From Alteromonas sp. MMG017 (lineage in GTDB: Bacteria > Pseudomonadota > Gammaproteobacteria > Enterobacterales > Alteromonadaceae), in assembly GCF_018100795.1 (NCBI RefSeq), contig NZ_JAGJDY010000002.1, positions 124,001 to 188,000 on the forward strand: 64,000 nt of DNA, in the 5' to 3' direction. The notes beneath the pieces are model-generated. The model worked only from the letters and a program-made list of their open reading frames with translations, searched no databases and was not told where the DNA came from. The position numbers and the translations under genes were made by a program. Positions 14,055-43,400 of the stretch are shown in pieces. Within the stretch, counting starts at the first letter, position 1. Every line of letters begins with the position of its first letter.

Positions 14055-15920
14055 TTACTTATCTGCTGGCTCGTACATCCACAGCGTATTATTTTCCTGG
14101 AAACCGTCTTCACCGATAAGAATACGGCCGTCGTTCATCACCACTACGTTATCAGGTTGAGATAGCTGTTCTACATCACAACGCTCTGCACCAGTTAGGC
14201 TTGAGCGGTAAGTACCGCCCATAACAACAGGCTCAATGCGAGTAATGTCATAGCCAGCTTCCAGACGTGCACGATACACACCGCCACAATCTTTAACGCG
14301 AGCAGAAAGCTGAATATCACCTTCATCATCAACCATGGTGTTATCTAGGTCAGCTATGCCAATATAAAGGTAAGCATTTTCAACCACTTCACCCTCAATA
14401 GTATCGGTGCCTTCCACGGCTTCTTCAGCGCGTTTAAGGTTAATTGAAATACCTTCAAGTTTACGCCATTCAGCGGTGGCTCCTTTAGCTCGCGCCGCCG
14501 CACGTGATTCTAAGAACGCCACGCGATCGTCCATCGGCTCACCTGCAGTTTGGCTACTACCACCCTCTTCAACAGTAGGGTATGTAGCATCGCCATTTGC
14601 CCACGCTTCTACATCGGCCATGGTAATGTAAGAGCTTTGGCCCTCTACATAATCATCTGTGCCAATCCCGTTGTACTCGTCAACCCATGCACGAATCGTC
14701 ATGTTATCGCCGCTAGCCAGCTCAACCCACTCAACGGCAAAGCCTGTTGTAGCAGGGTCATTTTGACCAACATCTTGCGTTAGCTTGGCGCCGAAAAGGG
14801 TACCCGAAGAAAGGTCTTCAGCAGTATCAGCAACAAATTTGAATAACACGCCACCGGTATCATCTTGAGAAAGATAAACGGTTTTTCCATCAGGCATAAC
14901 CGTTGAGTTTTCATGCTCGTAGCGACCCATTGCTAGGTGCTTAACAATCACTGGCTCATCAGCAAGTGGCTCGGTCACTTCGGCAATGTAACCATAGTTA
15001 TAAGGATTTGACGCATCAGGCGCAGTCATTTGCCACATACGACCAAGACGCGCTTCTGTTGCTACCGCTTCTGGGTTATTCCAGTTAGGTGATGTGGTTG
15101 AATCTACTTCTGAATCTACTACCCATTCTTCAGAGGTTAACGGCGTATTCCACGGTGACATTGAACCGAAACAGTTTGCCGCTGTGCCCCATACTGGCGA
15201 GAAATCAAGCATCATGGCTTCGGTAACTTGCCACATGCCAAAGTCGTCTTTTTCAACTTTCATACGGCTCATGCCGCCTGGAAGCTCTTCCCAGTTTGAG
15301 AACAAGTAGCCTTCGCCAGTATCAGTAGAAATGAAGCCATTAAAGTCTGGCATATCGTTTTCTAAAACAAGCTCTTCACCATCTAGCGTATAGATGTGAC
15401 CTAGGCCTTCTGGTAGTTCAGTACCAAAGGTGTCGCCCGTTTGACCAAGTACTTGATATTGACCAATGGCTGAAACCACCACTTCTTTTTCTTCATCAGA
15501 AGCAGGTACAGGTGAATTAGGAAGCGTAACCGGTAAGTTATTGAAGTTAGCACCAGCTAATACACCTACCGTGCCAGTATTAATAGGCATAGCGTTAACG
15601 TCATTAGTCACTGAGTTAGTGCCCGAAGGATGTTGAACGTTGAAGAAAAGGTCCCCCTCGTCGGTTAAGAAAATACCCGTTACCTCAGCACCAAGAGGAA
15701 CAGTAGCAATACGGGTTAATGTTCCCGCTGTATCGCCTTCTTCACCTTTATCGCCTTGCTCTCCCTGCTCACCTTGTTCGCCAACAGGGCCTTGCTCGCC
15801 AATTGCTCCAGCAACACCATCTTCTCCGTCATCGCCTTCTAATGAACAAGCAGAAATGCCAAATGCAACCGCTAAAGCTAGCGCCGAATATTTTAAATCG
15901 CGTAAACGTTCAATTTTCAT
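14055..15920 (-). CDS. PhoX/DUF839-type alkaline phosphatase lipoprotein with collagen-like stalk
   Basis: From the ATG at 15920 (AGGAT ribosome site) the 621-residue protein has a type II signal peptide (lipobox ISAC, Cys25). Twelve uninterrupted Gly-X-Y triplets follow (about residues 29-64), and then a PhoX-like domain. Signature segments are NCFGSMSPWNTPLTSEEW (equivalent to the PhoX C..G..TPWGTWLT.EE motif), MGRYEHE, the RKLEGI glutamate and DNVVVMNDGRILIGED. PhoX enzymes are Ca/Fe-dependent monoesterases for organic phosphate. Most are Tat-exported soluble proteins, whereas this one should be lipid-anchored on a rod-like stalk. Five tandem Pho-box units upstream support phosphate-starvation control. 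Confidence 0.8.
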   Translation of the reverse strand: MKIERLRDLKYSALALAVAFGISACSLEGDDGEDGVAGAIGEQGPVGEQGEQGEQGDKGEEGDTAGTLTRIATVPLGAEVTGIFLTDEGDLFFNVQHPSGTNSVTNDVNAMPINTGTVGVLAGANFNNLPVTLPNSPVPASDEEKEVVVSAIGQYQVLGQTGDTFGTELPEGLGHIYTLDGEELVLENDMPDFNGFISTDTGEGYLFSNWEELPGGMSRMKVEKDDFGMWQVTEAMMLDFSPVWGTAANCFGSMSPWNTPLTSEEWVVDSEVDSTTSPNWNNPEAVATEARLGRMWQMTAPDASNPYNYGYIAEVTEPLADEPVIVKHLAMGRYEHENSTVMPDGKTVYLSQDDTGGVLFKFVADTAEDLSSGTLFGAKLTQDVGQNDPATTGFAVEWVELASGDNMTIRAWVDEYNGIGTDDYVEGQSSYITMADVEAWANGDATYPTVEEGGSSQTAGEPMDDRVAFLESRAAARAKGATAEWRKLEGISINLKRAEEAVEGTDTIEGEVVENAYLYIGIADLDNTMVDDEGDIQLSARVKDCGGVYRARLEAGYDITRIEPVVMGGTYRSSLTGAERCDVEQLSQPDNVVVMNDGRILIGEDGFQENNTLWMYEPADK

Positions 15921-15992
15921 CAACTATCCTTTTTATAATCGTTAGGTTGAGACGGAACAAATTCATTCATCTCTGAAATGGTCTTAGCGGCG

Positions 15993-16062
15993 AATATAGT
16001 GAGGGAGTTATGTGACTGATAGGTGACACATTATTGACATAAAATTGAAGCTTTCTTGACAG
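15993..16062 (-). promoter_or_regulatory. Five-unit Pho box and -10 element of the phoX-like gene
   Basis: On the minus strand, five 7-mers lie at exactly 11-bp spacing: CTGTCAA, GCTTCAA, ATGTCAA, GTGTCAC and CAGTCAC (plus-strand starts 16056, 16045, 16034, 16023, 16012). These match the PhoB half-site CTGTCAT with its 4-bp spacers. A -10-like TATATT (15993-15998) follows 13 bp after the last unit, with no proper -35, as usual for PhoB-activated promoters. The remaining part of this 373-bp divergent region (to 16293) is AT-rich and presumably holds the promoter of the rightward cyclase. Confidence 0.85.
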
Positions 16063-16293
16063 AGTCCTATTGCGCCGTTTTATGTTGTATTTGCAAACAA
16101 CGAGAAATAATTGCGATGTATTAAAGGCACTGTTGTTTTTATAACGTATGGGAAATAACAACGTTGAAGCTATCATTATCTCTTTGCATCGCTAAATTTG
16201 TGTAAAGATGCTGTTGTAAAACATTAAGTTATGACTTTATGAGATGCTATAATTGGAATGCGACGAACGTAACTTGGTCAACGAGTGACATCA

Positions 16294-37770: not shown

Positions 37771-39794
37771 ACCATAAAGCAAATATGCTGCTAGCCACCT
37801 GCTTTATGGTATTAACGCTTAGCCTGCTTACCCCACTGCTAACTTGGGTGGTATTGCTCGCCATATGCGCGGTTATTATGCAAAGCGCATTGTATTTTAG
37901 GTGGCAAGAATATAACCCAAGTAGCCGCACCGTAAATTTATTAGCGGTTCTGTCCTTAATAGCGTTAGGTTGGTTTGGTCTTTCTATTGGTTTGCTCAAT
38001 AGCATGATTAACCTCTTAGTCATCGCCTGCTCATTGAAGCTTATGCTGCTTTCAAGAACAAAAGATTTTTTACAGCTTTTCTGCTCCTGCATATTTCTTG
38101 TGGGCTGCGGTTTTATTTTTGCGCTAGGGTTAGAAGCGTGGCTAGGCTACGTCGCGGTAATTGTGCTTTTGTTTACTGCTTTATCATTGGTATACGCCCC
38201 CGCCAGAAGTTTTAGGGTGTCTATGCGTAAATCGGCGGTATTACTGCTGCAAGCATTTCCTTTGGCTGCATTGTTATTTGTAGTGATGCCGCAGCTTCCG
38301 CCTTTATGGCAAATGCCGACGTCTAAATCGAATGAAACGGGTTTATCGGACTCGGTCACGCCAGGGGATATTGCTTCACTGGCGAGATCGTCCGATTTAG
38401 CTTTCACTGCAACCTTTGAGCAAAGCCCGCCTTTGGCCGAACAGCGATATTGGCGCGCCATGACGATGGAAGCCTTTGACGGTAAAACGTGGGCCATTAG
38501 CCCAAGACGAAAACAAGCTGAAGCACAGCTTAAAACCATGGGCCGAAGTCTTGCAGCGCCCTCAACTAAGGCATCATTAACACCCTCAGAAAACTACCAG
38601 TTGATTGTAGAGCCCAGCAATCAGCGCTGGCTATACTCTCTTGATGTGTCTGCTGAAAACACAGATTTAGACAATCCTGAGATGTGGCGTCAGTTTAATT
38701 ATGCATTAAGAGCAGCACGTCCAATTGTGGGTAAACGAGCGTTTTATTTAACTTATTTTCCAGATACGCCACTTGTTAGTGAGATATCTGATTTTGATTA
38801 TCAGCTTAATATTCAATACCCAATAGACAGTAACCTACGTACCCAAGCGTGGGTAAAGCAGCTAACGGCAAATGTACAAAGTGAGCGAAGTATTGCCGAA
38901 GATATTTTACGTCACTTTAAAACCGGTGGATTTAGCTACACCCTACAACCTAACGCTATGCCGAACTCGCCTATAGACACCTTTATGTTCGAAGCAAAGG
39001 CAGGATTTTGTGCCCACTATGCCAGCGCCATGGTGTTTGCCCTTCGGGTTGCGGATATTCCTGCTCGTATGGTGACAGGCTATCAAGGTGGTGAGTTATT
39101 AAGTGATAACGTAATACAAGTTCGCCAATATGATGCCCACGCTTGGGTGGAAGCGTTAATAGACGGCGTTTGGGTGTCGTACGATCCTACCAGTATGGTT
39201 GCTCCCTCTCGCATTTCCTTTGGGTTAGAGCAAGCACTAGCCGATTTTAACGAAACCCGCAGTGAAGGCATGTTTAAAGATTTAGGTTCTGCTGAGCTGT
39301 TTTTATCGATAAGAGGATGGTTTCGCCAGCTAGATTATCAGTGGAGTAGATTAGTACTGGGTTTTGATAATCAAACACAAACGGATTTATTGAAAAAACT
39401 CCTTGGCGATTTAACCTCTCAAAAAATGACGTTTTTCTTTCTAAGCGTACTTGGAATAGTGAGTATTTTTTTGCTGGTGTTGTTCTTCCCTATTAGAAGA
39501 AAGTCGACCTTGCCTAAACATCAACGCATTTATTTAAACGCCGTTGAGTTGGTGTCGAATTTTACTCAGATAGCGAGAGAAAATAAGGGAAGTACTGCCT
39601 ACTTCAAACAAGTGAAACCTTTTTTACCAGCAAATGCAGCATCGCTATTTAACACGCTTACTCAAGATTTTGAACATGCACAATATCAAGGTGCCACAGA
39701 CGGTGGTCGCGATAGCCAAAAGCAAAAAGAACGTACCATGACAGATGCACTTGCTGCGTTACAAAAAGACTTAAAGCGAACAAAACCAAATTAA
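37767..39794 (+). CDS. TgpA-like transmembrane transglutaminase (DUF3488)
   Basis: The 675-residue protein starts with a block of about six membrane helices (residues 5-170, DUF3488). A periplasmic transglutaminase-like domain follows with the catalytic triad: Cys in GFCAHYASAMVFALR (about residue 415), His in YDAHAWVEA and Asp in SYDPTS. One more transmembrane helix (about 552-574) and a cytoplasmic DUF4129-like tail complete it. P. aeruginosa TgpA has this layout and is essential there; the substrate is unknown, with a cell-envelope role likely. It completes the MoxR/DUF58/TgpA cassette. Confidence 0.9.
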   Translation: MNHKANMLLATCFMVLTLSLLTPLLTWVVLLAICAVIMQSALYFRWQEYNPSSRTVNLLAVLSLIALGWFGLSIGLLNSMINLLVIACSLKLMLLSRTKDFLQLFCSCIFLVGCGFIFALGLEAWLGYVAVIVLLFTALSLVYAPARSFRVSMRKSAVLLLQAFPLAALLFVVMPQLPPLWQMPTSKSNETGLSDSVTPGDIASLARSSDLAFTATFEQSPPLAEQRYWRAMTMEAFDGKTWAISPRRKQAEAQLKTMGRSLAAPSTKASLTPSENYQLIVEPSNQRWLYSLDVSAENTDLDNPEMWRQFNYALRAARPIVGKRAFYLTYFPDTPLVSEISDFDYQLNIQYPIDSNLRTQAWVKQLTANVQSERSIAEDILRHFKTGGFSYTLQPNAMPNSPIDTFMFEAKAGFCAHYASAMVFALRVADIPARMVTGYQGGELLSDNVIQVRQYDAHAWVEALIDGVWVSYDPTSMVAPSRISFGLEQALADFNETRSEGMFKDLGSAELFLSIRGWFRQLDYQWSRLVLGFDNQTQTDLLKKLLGDLTSQKMTFFFLSVLGIVSIFLLVLFFPIRRKSTLPKHQRIYLNAVELVSNFTQIARENKGSTAYFKQVKPFLPANAASLFNTLTQDFEHAQYQGATDGGRDSQKQKERTMTDALAALQKDLKRTKPN

Positions 39795-39902
39795 CGCTGT
39801 GTGTTGTTGATCCGCTTTAGTGTTCACTATAGTGATCAGCGAAAAATGCGTAAGTACATTTGGTTTAATATCCACCAATTCAGTGCACCTTAGCACTTCA
39901 TT

Positions 39903-39918
39903 TGCACCATTGTGGTTT
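39903..39918. promoter_or_regulatory. NtrC-like enhancer site
   Basis: TGCACC-ATTG-TGGTTT matches the NtrC consensus TGCACC-N4-TGGTGCA in the whole left half and in the TGGT core of the right half. It lies about 115 bp upstream of the predicted sigma-54 transcription start, a normal enhancer distance. A further inverted repeat AGTGC-N6-GCACT lies just upstream at 39882-39897. Confidence 0.55.
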
Positions 39919-40004
39919 GATTCTGATCATTCCAGCAATACATTAGCTTAAGTGAATAATAATAAAGCACTGATTTTAAACAATTTAAAATAAAATCGCT
40001 TTTT

Positions 40005-40020
40005 TGGCACTATTCTCGCT
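40005..40020 (+). promoter_or_regulatory. Sigma-54 promoter of the FNT-kinase-cyanase operon
   Basis: TGGCAC-N5-TCGCT matches the sigma-54 consensus TGGCAC-N5-TTGCW, with GG (40006-40007) and GC (40018-40019) at the required spacing. The predicted start is near 40031. Together with the upstream NtrC-like site this indicates nitrogen-limitation control. Confidence 0.7.
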
Positions 40021-40030
40021 AACCATTAAT

Positions 40031-40133
40031 TAGTACGAGTCAGTGTGTAAACTGGCTATCACAATCTATCGAATTGGATAAAGACGTCCACAACCTTCTT
40101 TGGAAACAGGGAATGGTGTGGACGTTTTTTTTT
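40031..40133 (+). promoter_or_regulatory. Attenuator leader: two hexaloop hairpins and an intrinsic terminator
   Basis: The predicted transcript begins with P1 (7-bp stem 40038-40044/40051-40057, loop GTGTAA) and P2 (4-bp stem 40067-40070/40077-40080, loop GAATTG). Three bases later comes a strong terminator (stem 40084-40092/40117-40125 followed by a T9 run). All of this precedes the FNT gene by 75 bp, so transcription should stop unless antitermination occurs. Two hexaloop hairpins before a terminator is the layout bound by ANTAR antiterminators such as NasR. However, the loops lack the A1/G4 bases I recall as their consensus, so another factor is possible. Confidence 0.7.
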
Positions 40134-40208
40134 GTTCGTTTGTTCTATCGATGAAAGCAGTGATGTGGCTCGTTATTTTAAATAAATTACAAATCAGGGT
40201 GATTAATT

Positions 40209-41057
40209 ATGGCTTATTTACTTCCCGCCGAGTTTGCTACGAAAATGGTAGATGCCGGTGAATCTAAAATCTACATGTCTACACGCGATACACTTATTCG
40301 TGCGTTTATGGCAGGTGCAATATTAGCGCTAGCCGCCGTATTCGCCATTACCATTGCCGTACAAACAGGCATCTTCTTACTGGGCGCGGTATTGTTCCCG
40401 GTGGGCTTTTGCATGTTGTATTTAATGGGATTCGATCTGCTAACCGGCGTATTTGTACTTACGCCGCTCGCCTGGCTTGCCAAGCGACCCGGTGTTACCC
40501 CTAAACAAATTTTACGTAACTGGGGTTTAGTATTTTTAGGCAACTTTGGTGGTGCACTCACGGTGGCCTTCATGATGTCTTTCATTTTCACCATGGGTTA
40601 CAACGTAGATGGTGGCGCAATTGCAGCTAAAGTGGCTAGCATTGGTGAAGCAAGAACATTAGGTTACGCCGAACATGGCACTGCAGGTTGGTTTACCATT
40701 TTTATTCGCGGCATGCTGTGTAACTGGATGGTATCACTAGGTGTGGTTGGCGCTATGATCTCTACGCATGTAAGTGGAAAAGTACTGGCCATGTGGATGC
40801 CTATCATGCTGTTCTTTTTCATGGGCTTTGAACACTCTGTTGTTAACATGTTCCTATTCCCATTCGGCCTTATTATGGGTGGCGAATTCTCTATCATGGA
40901 TTACTTCGTGTGGAATGAAATTCCAACAGCCCTTGGTAACCTAGTGGGTGGTTTAGCATTTACTGGTTTAACGATTTACAGTACACACGTTAAAACTGCA
41001 CCTAAGCGTAAAATTCCTGTTGCTGAAAAAGCACCAGCTAAAGTCGCTGCAGTATAA
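40209..41057 (+). CDS. Formate/nitrite transporter (FNT) family channel
   Basis: The 282-residue protein has six transmembrane segments and FNT signatures (LLGAVLFPVGFCMLYLMGFDLLTG, NWGLVFLGNFGGAL, and GFEHSVVNMFLFPFGLIMGG near the end). FNT proteins are pentameric channels for small monovalent anions: formate, nitrite, hydrosulfide. The gene is followed by a kinase/phosphatase and cyanase and sits behind a sigma-54 promoter and attenuator. The substrate is therefore more likely a nitrogen source (nitrite or cyanate) than formate; this is inference. A terminator separates it from the next gene, giving another control point. Confidence 0.9.
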   Translation: MAYLLPAEFATKMVDAGESKIYMSTRDTLIRAFMAGAILALAAVFAITIAVQTGIFLLGAVLFPVGFCMLYLMGFDLLTGVFVLTPLAWLAKRPGVTPKQILRNWGLVFLGNFGGALTVAFMMSFIFTMGYNVDGGAIAAKVASIGEARTLGYAEHGTAGWFTIFIRGMLCNWMVSLGVVGAMISTHVSGKVLAMWMPIMLFFFMGFEHSVVNMFLFPFGLIMGGEFSIMDYFVWNEIPTALGNLVGGLAFTGLTIYSTHVKTAPKRKIPVAEKAPAKVAAV

Positions 41058-41063
41058 TTTAAC

Positions 41064-41098
41064 AAGCCCGATACGCTTCCTCTGTATCGGGCTTTTTT
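41064..41098 (+). terminator. Intrinsic terminator abutting the kinase start codon
   Basis: An 11-bp stem (41064-41074 with 41084-41094) is followed by T6. Only three bases separate the T-tract from the ATG of the kinase gene, so read-through transcripts carry the hairpin where a ribosome site would normally be. Confidence 0.88.
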
Positions 41099-41101
41099 CT
41101 T

Positions 41102-42910
41102 ATGCAGATACAGTCTTTATCACTTCACTATAGCGAATGTAGCAGCGCTGGCGTAAAGCCTATAAATCAGGACGCTTGCGATGCATTTATTCCCGCTAAC
41201 ACTAGCCCAGCGTTGACATTAAAAGGCGCCGCCTTTGCGCTTGCCGATGGTATAAGCAGCAGTACTGTTAGCCAAATAGCCAGTGATTTAGCAATTAAAG
41301 ATTTTATAAAACAATACTTTTGTACCCCCGAAACTTGGGGAGTAGCGCAAAGTGCTAAAACCGTTATACAAAGTATCAATGCCACTTTATATACCAAAAC
41401 CCAGCAAAGCCCTTTTTGCTATACCCCTGATAAGGGTTACGTATGCACTTTTTCTGCGGTTATTGTTAAAGGCGATACGGCGCATATCTTCCATGTGGGT
41501 GATGCCAGAGTGTGTTTGTATTCCGATGAAACGCTACAAGTACTTACCCAATCTCATCGGGTAAACCACTCAAAACATGAATCTTACCTCGCTAACGCAC
41601 TGGGCGTGCATGCTAATGTGGACATCGATTACCTTACGGTACCGTTAAAAGCAGGCGATACCCTTATTCTAATGACAGATGGCGTGTATGAGTATGTCTC
41701 TTCCCTCACACTTGCTTCACTGATATCGACGGTGCACGCACCTGAGAATGACGCTTCTGTTCGTAACAGCTCTATTCAAAACAGTTCTAGTGTAAAAAAG
41801 AGTGACACGCCTCTCGCACAACGCCTTGTTGATATGGCTTTAGAGAACGAGAGTGATGACAATGTTTCTTGCCAATGTATAACGGTAGCGAGCGTGGGCG
41901 ATGGCAAATTTGTAACACCGGAATATGCGGTTGATGAAACGTCACTTCCTATTATTAAGCAGTTAAATGTAGGAGAGACAGTAGATGGCTATCGTATTGA
42001 TCGACAACTATACCAATCCGCTAGAAGCCATGTTTTCTTGGCTTGGGATGAAAATACCAAAACCCATGTCGTTATTAAAATACCCTCTACTGAACTGGCA
42101 CAAAACGGCGAATACTTAGAACACTTTGCGTTAGAAGAATGGCTAGCACGGCGGATTAAATCTAACCATGTGATTAATGTACCTGCCCGTACTCAGCCGC
42201 CTTCATGCATGTATAGCATTAGCGAATATATTGAAGGGCAAAACTTAACCCAGTGGCTAACAGACAACCCTAAGCCAGATGTAGAAAAAGTGAGAAGTAT
42301 TATTGAGCAGGTAGCTAAAGGCTTAATGGCTATGCATCGGGAGGGGCTGCTTCATCAAGATATTCGCCCTGAAAATATCATGATTGAAGCATCTGGTAAC
42401 TGTAAAATAATAGATTTAGGCTCGGCTCGTGTTGCGGGCATTAGTGACGCACTGTTTGAACATGAGAGTGATATTATGGGCACTGCAGCTTATGTTGCTC
42501 CAGAATATTTTTTGGGTGACAGTGGCTGTGATCAATCCGACCTTTATTCCCTTGCGGTACTTACCTATTACTTACTCAGCAACCGTTTTCCTTATGGAAC
42601 ACAGGTAGCCAAAACCCGCACCGTGGCGGCGCAGCATAAACTTAAATACCAATCGGTACTTGATGATAGACGACCTATTCCAGCTTGGATAGATGACACG
42701 TTAAAACGGGCGTTACAGCCTAACCCTGAAAAGCGTTTTACCAGCTTATCTGAATTTACCTATCATCTTCGCCACCCTAGTCCAGCTTTTCTCAATCGCG
42801 TAACTGCGCCATTAATACAACGTCATCCACTGAAATTTTGGCAGGGACTTTCTCTGCTATTAGTGATTAGCAATGTAGTGACATTCTTACTGCTTTATGG
42901 CAGTCATTAA
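41102..42910 (+). CDS. Fused PP2C phosphatase and Ser/Thr protein kinase
   Basis: The 602-residue protein joins an N-terminal PP2C-type phosphatase (about 1-265; metal motifs NQDACDAF, ALADGIS, LMTDGVYEYV, ESDDNVS) to a Hanks-type kinase (about 285-560). The kinase has the HVVIKIPS lysine, the catalytic loop HQDIRPENIM near residue 419, IDLGSAR in place of DFG, and GTAAYVAPEY. It ends in one transmembrane helix (about 578-598). The glycine loop is poorly conserved and HRD is HQD, so kinase activity may be unusual. Similar fusions occur beside nitrate-assimilation genes in pseudomonads. No alternative start or good ribosome site is visible. Confidence 0.88.
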   Translation: MQIQSLSLHYSECSSAGVKPINQDACDAFIPANTSPALTLKGAAFALADGISSSTVSQIASDLAIKDFIKQYFCTPETWGVAQSAKTVIQSINATLYTKTQQSPFCYTPDKGYVCTFSAVIVKGDTAHIFHVGDARVCLYSDETLQVLTQSHRVNHSKHESYLANALGVHANVDIDYLTVPLKAGDTLILMTDGVYEYVSSLTLASLISTVHAPENDASVRNSSIQNSSSVKKSDTPLAQRLVDMALENESDDNVSCQCITVASVGDGKFVTPEYAVDETSLPIIKQLNVGETVDGYRIDRQLYQSARSHVFLAWDENTKTHVVIKIPSTELAQNGEYLEHFALEEWLARRIKSNHVINVPARTQPPSCMYSISEYIEGQNLTQWLTDNPKPDVEKVRSIIEQVAKGLMAMHREGLLHQDIRPENIMIEASGNCKIIDLGSARVAGISDALFEHESDIMGTAAYVAPEYFLGDSGCDQSDLYSLAVLTYYLLSNRFPYGTQVAKTRTVAAQHKLKYQSVLDDRRPIPAWIDDTLKRALQPNPEKRFTSLSEFTYHLRHPSPAFLNRVTAPLIQRHPLKFWQGLSLLLVISNVVTFLLLYGSH

Positions 42911-42950
42911 CTCATATCAATAACCCGTATCACTCGAAAAAGGAAATGCA

Positions 42951-43400
42951 ATGATTACCAATCGAACTCAAGTTACCGACATGATCCAGTCTTCAAAAAT
43001 TTCTAAAGGAATTAAATGGAGTGAAATTGCCCAAGCTGTCGGACAATCTAAAGAATGGAGTACCGCAGCTTGCTTAGGCCAAATGGCCATGACTAAAGCT
43101 CAGGCAACGGCCGTAGGTGAAATGCTTGAACTGAGTGATGAAGCTATTGCGTGGTTGCAGATTGCGCCCTATAAAGGCTCATTGCCAACCGAAGTACCTA
43201 CCGATCCGCTTATCTATCGCTGGTACGAATTAGTAAGTGTTTATGGCACTACCTTAAAAGAACTTATTCATGAGGAATTTGGTGACGGAATTATGAGTGC
43301 TATCGATTTCTCGATGGATTTACAACGTGAGAACGATCCAAAGGGTGACCGTGTAAGCGTGGTGATGTCTGGAAAGTTCCTACCTTACAAGATGTATTAA
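42951..43400 (+). CDS. cynS: Cyanase (cyanate hydratase)
   Basis: CynS converts cyanate and bicarbonate to ammonia and CO2, detoxifying cyanate and supplying nitrogen. The 149-residue protein has an N-terminal helical DNA-binding-like domain and the C-terminal decamer domain. The catalytic residues are all present: Arg90 (IYRWYE), Glu93 and Ser116 (DGIMSAIDF), equivalent to E. coli Arg96, Glu99 and Ser122. It follows the kinase gene by 40 bp with AAGGAA before the ATG and ends the operon. Confidence 0.96.
   Translation: MITNRTQVTDMIQSSKISKGIKWSEIAQAVGQSKEWSTAACLGQMAMTKAQATAVGEMLELSDEAIAWLQIAPYKGSLPTEVPTDPLIYRWYELVSVYGTTLKELIHEEFGDGIMSAIDFSMDLQRENDPKGDRVSVVMSGKFLPYKMY

Follow-up and report, generated by a model that had tools for sequence, protein, structure and literature searches.

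The window, i.e., the entire stretch of 64,000 nucleotides that was analysed, belongs to a genome of the genus Alteromonas (G000, in the following the own genome; L and G labels denote loci and genomes of relatives). It harbors three consecutive genes, all on the + strand, which encode a member of the formate/nitrite transporter family (FNT), a fusion of a PP2C phosphatase with a Ser/Thr kinase, and a cyanase. An earlier note on this DNA had placed a regulatory leader in front of these genes, and this arrangement was confirmed, with the genes at 40209-43400. The locus contains the following features:

39871-39887, 39884-39900 and 39903-39919, + strand: three NtrC-like sites with 2, 3 and 3 mismatches, respectively, to TGCACCN5GGTGCA
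40005-40020, + strand: sigma-54 promoter (-24/-12) TGGCACTATTCTCGCT, one mismatch to TGGCACN5TTGCW
40038-40057, + strand: hairpin P1, AGTCAGT-GTGTAA-ACTGGCT, 7 bp, from the predicted fold; hexaloop without A1/G4
40061-40064, + strand: ACAA element in the P1-P2 linker, kept in most FNT leaders across Alteromonas and further marine Gammaproteobacteria
40076-40089 (one extra pair, 40075-40090), + strand: hairpin P2, GGAT-AAAGAC-GTCC, putative ANTAR antiterminator according to relatives, covariation and terminator overlap
40084-40125 (stem-loop) and 40125-40133 (run of 9 T), + strand: intrinsic terminator, with the 3' arm of P2 contained in its 5' arm
40209-41057, + strand: FNT gene (PF01226, E 3e-64)
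41102-42910, + strand: PP2C phosphatase-Ser/Thr kinase fusion gene, from domain matches
42951-43400, + strand: cyanase gene cynS (TIGR00673 and PF02560, both above cut-off)

The FNT protein scored under the cut-offs of the FocA and NirC family models, and Rfam at gathering scores returned two tRNAs only for the whole window. The gene upstream of the leader is likewise located on the + strand and ends at 39794. Many of the 49 inspected loci have cyanase after FNT-kinase; seven (L034, L035, L036, L038, L039, L141, and L142) have nirB immediately after it, and in L037 and L044 cyanase comes first and nirB second. Since FNT-kinase, with or without cyanase, adjoins nirB in some loci, the operon of the window looks like a detached piece of a nitrate cluster. 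The PP2C-kinase fusion (41102-42910 in the window) keeps its FNT neighbourhood in nitrate clusters even without cyanase. In L002, a gene for a SulP-family permease with a STAS domain (14652-16217) lies between nasR and nirB. Moreover, five loci (L046, L048, L050, L051, and L055) have FNT-kinase without a P2-terminator leader, with cyanase nearby in most of them; the genomes of L048, L050, and L051 have no ANTAR match.

An NtrC-like site and a sigma-54 promoter had been proposed upstream of the leader, and both proposals held. The sites were called with consensus sequences that we take to be those of sigma-54 promoters and NtrC sites. The promoter TGGCACTATTCTCGCT has the GG and GC of the -24/-12 elements and lies downstream of the three NtrC-like sites, and transcription can be assumed to start near 40031. 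Within the window, the sigma-54 pattern has 46 matches vs 43 expected and the NtrC pattern 27 vs 24, so that neither exceeds chance frequency and the support for both kinds of site is comparative. Of 47 leaders of relatives, 44 have a best sigma-54 match before P2 with at least nine of the 11 letters (eight in L044, L056, and L057), at places similar to that in the window; for the window, L005, and L006 the pick of the scan was a tie or near tie, TAGCAC... (39891), a match without the GG. Furthermore, 44 NtrC half-sites are found upstream of the promoter in 28 representatives vs 7.0 +/- 2.5 in shuffled sequences, with a maximum of 14 in 200 shuffles. The own genome contains rpoN (one match, above cut-off) as well as ntrC (86 matches, one above cut-off), and a scan of 39700-40300 listed no sigma-70-type site. 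The window contains a second sigma-54-like match, TAGCACTTCATTTGCA at 39891-39906, which has one mismatch and overlaps the NtrC-like sites.

Downstream of the promoter, the earlier note had described two hexaloop hairpins and a strong terminator. The terminator was corroborated, and the leader folds much better than its dinucleotide shuffles (z -6.5, 0/200 as good). The terminator is absent from the list of a simple terminator scan, presumably due to the rule for unbroken stems, which would exclude it. From the two hairpins P1 stood, whereas the second one (TATC-GAATTG-GATA, 40067-40080) was rejected, as its conservation in relatives is at chance level: some hairpin of at least 4 bp can form at this site in 14/28 representatives (null 12.4; reached by 171/500 shuffles) and a hexaloop hairpin in 6/28 (null 3.9). 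The conserved hairpin is P2, which starts nine bases later and overlaps the rejected one. In this register its hexaloop carries A1 at 40080 and G4 at 40083, so that the claim that the loop bases are unfit for ANTAR applies to P1 (GTGTAA), but not to P2. ANTAR antiterminators are designed as an A1/G4 hexaloop sharing its 3' arm with the 5' arm of the terminator (PMC3369931), and the same overlap is present here. According to predicted folds, RNA ending at 40088 forms a hairpin at 40064-40079, near the rejected one, whereas RNA ending at 40090-40100 forms P1 and P2. From 40120 on, the terminator is predicted in place of P2, and the hairpin at 40064-40079 can reappear; the predicted energies in isolation are about -4 kcal/mol for P2 and -26 kcal/mol for the terminator.

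The comparison drew on 146 genomes, in which 65 places have an FNT relative with at least about 50% identity. A P2 is located at a terminator in 46 of these 65 upstream regions with a minimum of 4 bp and in 47 with a minimum of 3 bp, by a search rule that itself required A1 and G4. The remaining 18 have no terminator by the rule used, and therefore no terminator-bearing leader without an A1/G4 P2 was encountered. The stems are of the types GGAC/GTCC, GGAT/GTCC, GAGC/GCTC, and AGAC/GTCT, besides one AGAC/GTCG with a mismatch. A covariance comparison of P1, P2, and terminator had been suggested, and for P2 it was positive: in 18 distinct stretches picked from the 47 P2 leaders, double changes occur at three of the four pairs, 98.6% of the cells pair, and the score is reached by 0/500 shuffles, whereas slid registers reach 52.8% pairing at most. 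Hairpins at P1 are only weakly above chance in relatives. The letters of the window P2 occur exactly once in the own genome. With one mismatch there are two places in all vs eight for the backwards control, so that only the exact match is meaningful; the additional place (G000 contig C77:73530-73543) lies between NtrC-family genes and is at chance level by this control.

The search for ANTAR proteins proposed in the earlier note was run, and exactly one was found in the own genome, a protein of 454 residues with the NIT and ANTAR domains expected of a NasR regulon. In the PDB it matches a single entry at E <=0.001, NasR from Klebsiella oxytoca (4akk, E 9e-36), and none of the NCBIfam models matches it. 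In EutV, a Tyr and a Met contact the hexaloop (PMC8934654), and counterparts of both can be recognized by eye in the stretch AYRKLQKQAM of the NasR homologue. The own nasR is located on a contig other than that of the window, adjoining a nitrate assimilation cluster. A head-to-head arrangement of nasR and the FNT operon is seen in 23 genomes of the genus, with 1.55-1.69 kb from the ANTAR domain to FNT. Among 57 genomes of the genus, 43 have both FNT and ANTAR, 12 have neither, and two have one alone, namely G005 with FNT (and a P2 leader) without an ANTAR match and G008 with ANTAR without FNT (Fisher p 2e-10, which ignores relatedness). A hand tally gave an ANTAR match in the genomes of 46/47 P2-bearing regions vs 4/18 P2-less ones.

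The nirB and nrtA leaders of the own genome contain, by eye, the sigma-54-like sites TGGCACTAATATTGGA and TGGCACGAACTCTGCT, followed by a P2 with the sequence GGC-AACGAA-GCC or GGC-ATCGAA-GCC and a terminator. This P2 type is present at 60/60 loci among the best 30 matches each for nirB and nrtA; by the rule, a T run is missing at L092 and L096, and another hairpin was chosen at L119 and L121. When the own genome was searched with a pattern of this P2 plus a T run, only the two places before nirB and nrtA came up, vs none in the backwards control.

P1 behaves differently from the P1 of known dual-hexaloop targets. In Klebsiella nasF, the P1 stem as well as A1 and G4 of the P1 loop are needed for antitermination by NasR (PMC3369936), and NasR binds P1P2 at near 1 uM vs near 12 uM for P2 alone (PMC7496416). 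The P1 loop of the window has neither A1 nor G4, and within 75 nt before the window P2 no A1/G4 hairpin of at least 2 bp was found, other registers included. Among the Alteromonas relatives, the mean score for any type of P1 hairpin was attained by 5/200 shuffles, and the mean fold z of P1 is -0.57 +/- 0.23 vs -1.2 +/- 0.29 in other genera; loop bases and lengths vary across Alteromonas. A consensus P1 (4 bp or more, within 50 nt) is present in 3/47 FNT (null 1.65), 0/28 nrtA (0.70; two loci without a rule-based P2 dropped), and 1/30 nirB leaders (1.11). At 3 bp or more it occurs in 11/47 FNT leaders vs a null of 3.2, seven of which belong to one related group (L029-L035). Within 55 nt, three of 103 Alteromonas leaders from the three operons have it, which is chance (null 3.3); L049 and L058, from other genera, were excluded from this set, and one of the three positives, L118, comes from the ANTAR-less G005. 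Six relatives (L008, L009, L012, L014, L015, and L021) have a further hexaloop hairpin with A1/G4 (4 bp or more) upstream of FNT, 44-53 nt before P2, with the loop AAAGAC, AAAGGC, or AACGGC, and in several of them another stretch able to form a hairpin lies in between.

A different picture was obtained for relatives with short NasT-like ANTAR proteins, where eight of 12 leaders (from 10/16 neighbourhoods, with seven of 17 pattern matches inspected) have a consensus P1 (null 0.34; 0/300 shuffles), compared with 3/61 in the thinned Alteromonas set (Fisher p 5e-6). A receiver domain is present in all four short ANTAR proteins checked; the remaining ones were labelled NasT-like by length and sequence. 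In other named genera, P2 and terminator were found at 35/80 named loci, nine of which fall into the Alteromonas group. Among the 26 left, counted irrespective of the ANTAR type (NasR or NasT), nine have a consensus P1 (null 1.0, largest 4), and therefore it is often missing in other genera, too. The NasR/NasT contrast is thus an association and not a proven cause of the absence of consensus P1.

Besides P2, the tetranucleotide ACAA is kept in the linker. It starts within 23 nt of P2 in 23/28 Alteromonas FNT representatives (null 5.6; highest of 500 shuffles 12) and within 25 nt in 20/26 leaders from other genera (null 4.5, maximum 10). Within 50 nt before P2 it is enriched in nrtA leaders (26/28 vs null 13.5), but not in nirB leaders (12/30 vs null 11.3), which disfavours a general need for ACAA. 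Altogether it occurs in 80/103 Alteromonas and 5/12 NasT-like leaders, and the bases flanking it carry little information. By eye, ACAA does not pair consistently with either the P1 loop or the bases past the T run, and such pairing was rejected. A role as boxA was dropped, as the remaining letters of the boxA sequence are absent.

Based on the observed elements, their conservation, the covariation of P2, and the presence and linkage of one ANTAR gene, we consider it very probable that the leader mediates nitrate/nitrite-responsive antitermination by NasR behind an NtrC-activated sigma-54 promoter. We infer that under nitrogen limitation NtrC and sigma-54 would launch transcription near 40031. 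By default, the nascent RNA would fold P1 and briefly P2, until the stronger terminator captures the 3' arm of P2 and ends transcription near 40133. NasR loaded with nitrate or nitrite would hold P2 with its ANTAR domain via A1 and G4 of the loop and block completion of the terminator, so that FNT, kinase-phosphatase, and cyanase could be transcribed. The nirB and nrtA operons would be co-expressed through the same design of promoter and P2-terminator. The two-layer control envisaged in the earlier note, with nitrogen limitation for the start and a second signal for read-through, appears well supported by sequence comparison (conserved sigma-54/NtrC sites and P2-terminator), with NasR and its response to nitrate or nitrite as the most probable second layer. 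The antiterminator was suspected to be new, which was not borne out: P2 with A1/G4 is conserved and overlaps the terminator, the sole ANTAR protein is a NasR homologue, nasR is adjacent in relatives, and the same P2 type precedes nirB and nrtA, so that NasR is the most likely antiterminator. Counting against NasR are the P1 without A1/G4, the exceptions G005 and G008, the P2 rule demanding A1/G4, and the location of the own nasR on another contig.

Alternatively, the two hexaloops as first drawn could be used by a novel factor other than ANTAR, or by an RNA that senses cyanate or nitrite directly. The P1 loop, which is not ANTAR-like, the ACAA kept in the linker, and the cyanase within the operon would go along with this, but the 40067-40080 hairpin is at chance in relatives, the P2 overlapping it is a covarying ANTAR hexaloop at the terminator, FNT presence tracks that of the ANTAR protein, and the same leader precedes FNT-kinase-nirB without cyanase, which makes such a mechanism very improbable. 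Even less credible is that the terminator merely ends transcripts of the upstream gene and that the FNT promoter lies downstream of 40133. That gene has the same strand and ends nearby, at 39794; however, P2 and terminator are kept with FNT in the 23 genomes where the divergent nasR is upstream, sigma-54 sites precede P2 in relatives, and a sigma-70-type site is not listed in 39700-40300.

If NasR is the antiterminator, the role of P1 can be understood in two ways. It is quite conceivable, at somewhat less than even chances, that in the Alteromonas NasR regulon (FNT-kinase-cyanase, nirB, and nrtA) antitermination works from the single hexaloop P2, and that the recruitment loop of P1 was lost and replaced by the ACAA linker or by a hairpin read by its shape, or is dispensable. 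The structure of EutV with RNA redefined the minimal ANTAR motif as one hexaloop and left open how far single-hexaloop motifs reach, and a linker longer by 20 nt abolishes the action of EutV (PMC8934654). Somewhat less plausible to us is a true dual-hairpin target, in which one ANTAR domain of a NasR with relaxed specificity still recognizes the non-consensus P1. Close relatives of the window have a hairpin with a 6-nt loop 18 nt before P2, similar to the spacing of 17-24 nt of the consensus P1 in several other genera, which is in favor of such a target, but the P1 loops of Alteromonas vary in bases and length and the hairpins are weakly above chance.

If the single-hexaloop reading is true, one ANTAR hexaloop suffices for antitermination in nature, and searches for ANTAR targets would change. 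These leaders would be missed by any search that requires A1/G4 in both loops. Since a large natural regulon has kept P2 but not the consensus P1, the question is directly testable. Handling of cyanate and nitrite and a kinase-phosphatase would moreover be linked to nitrate sensing in marine bacteria. Among the papers listed by searches of an open-licence library, none dealt with this leader or with control of cyanase by NasR.

Compared with known systems, the leader resembles that of nasF in its proposed mode of action, yet fails in the P1 feature of the dual-hexaloop motif, and since this one defining feature is missing it is a variant. Ntr/sigma-54 control is presumably a further likeness to nasF. 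In the parts of the literature drawn on here, the nasF/NasR system of Klebsiella oxytoca shares a NIT-ANTAR regulator, an A1/G4 P2 overlapping an intrinsic terminator, and nitrogen assimilation genes as targets (PMC3369936, PMC7496416). In contrast to nasF as described there, the Alteromonas P1 loop has no A1/G4, ACAA is present in the linker, and instead of one operon there are several leaders (FNT-kinase-cyanase, nirB, and nrtA), with cyanase and a kinase-phosphatase among the targets. The eut leaders of Enterococcus faecalis likewise have a terminator-overlapping P2 hexaloop to which an ANTAR domain binds, this binding being predicted in our case; they differ by A1/G4 in both loops and by the dependence on linker length, and EutV is a response regulator, whereas Alteromonas uses a nitrate sensor fusion (PMC3369931, PMC8934654, as far as the parts drawn on here describe it). 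The NasT-type leaders of related Alteromonadales also have a P2-terminator before nrtA, nasA, and other nitrogen genes, but carry a consensus P1 in 8/12 and go along with a receiver-ANTAR regulator (receiver domain in 4/4 checked).
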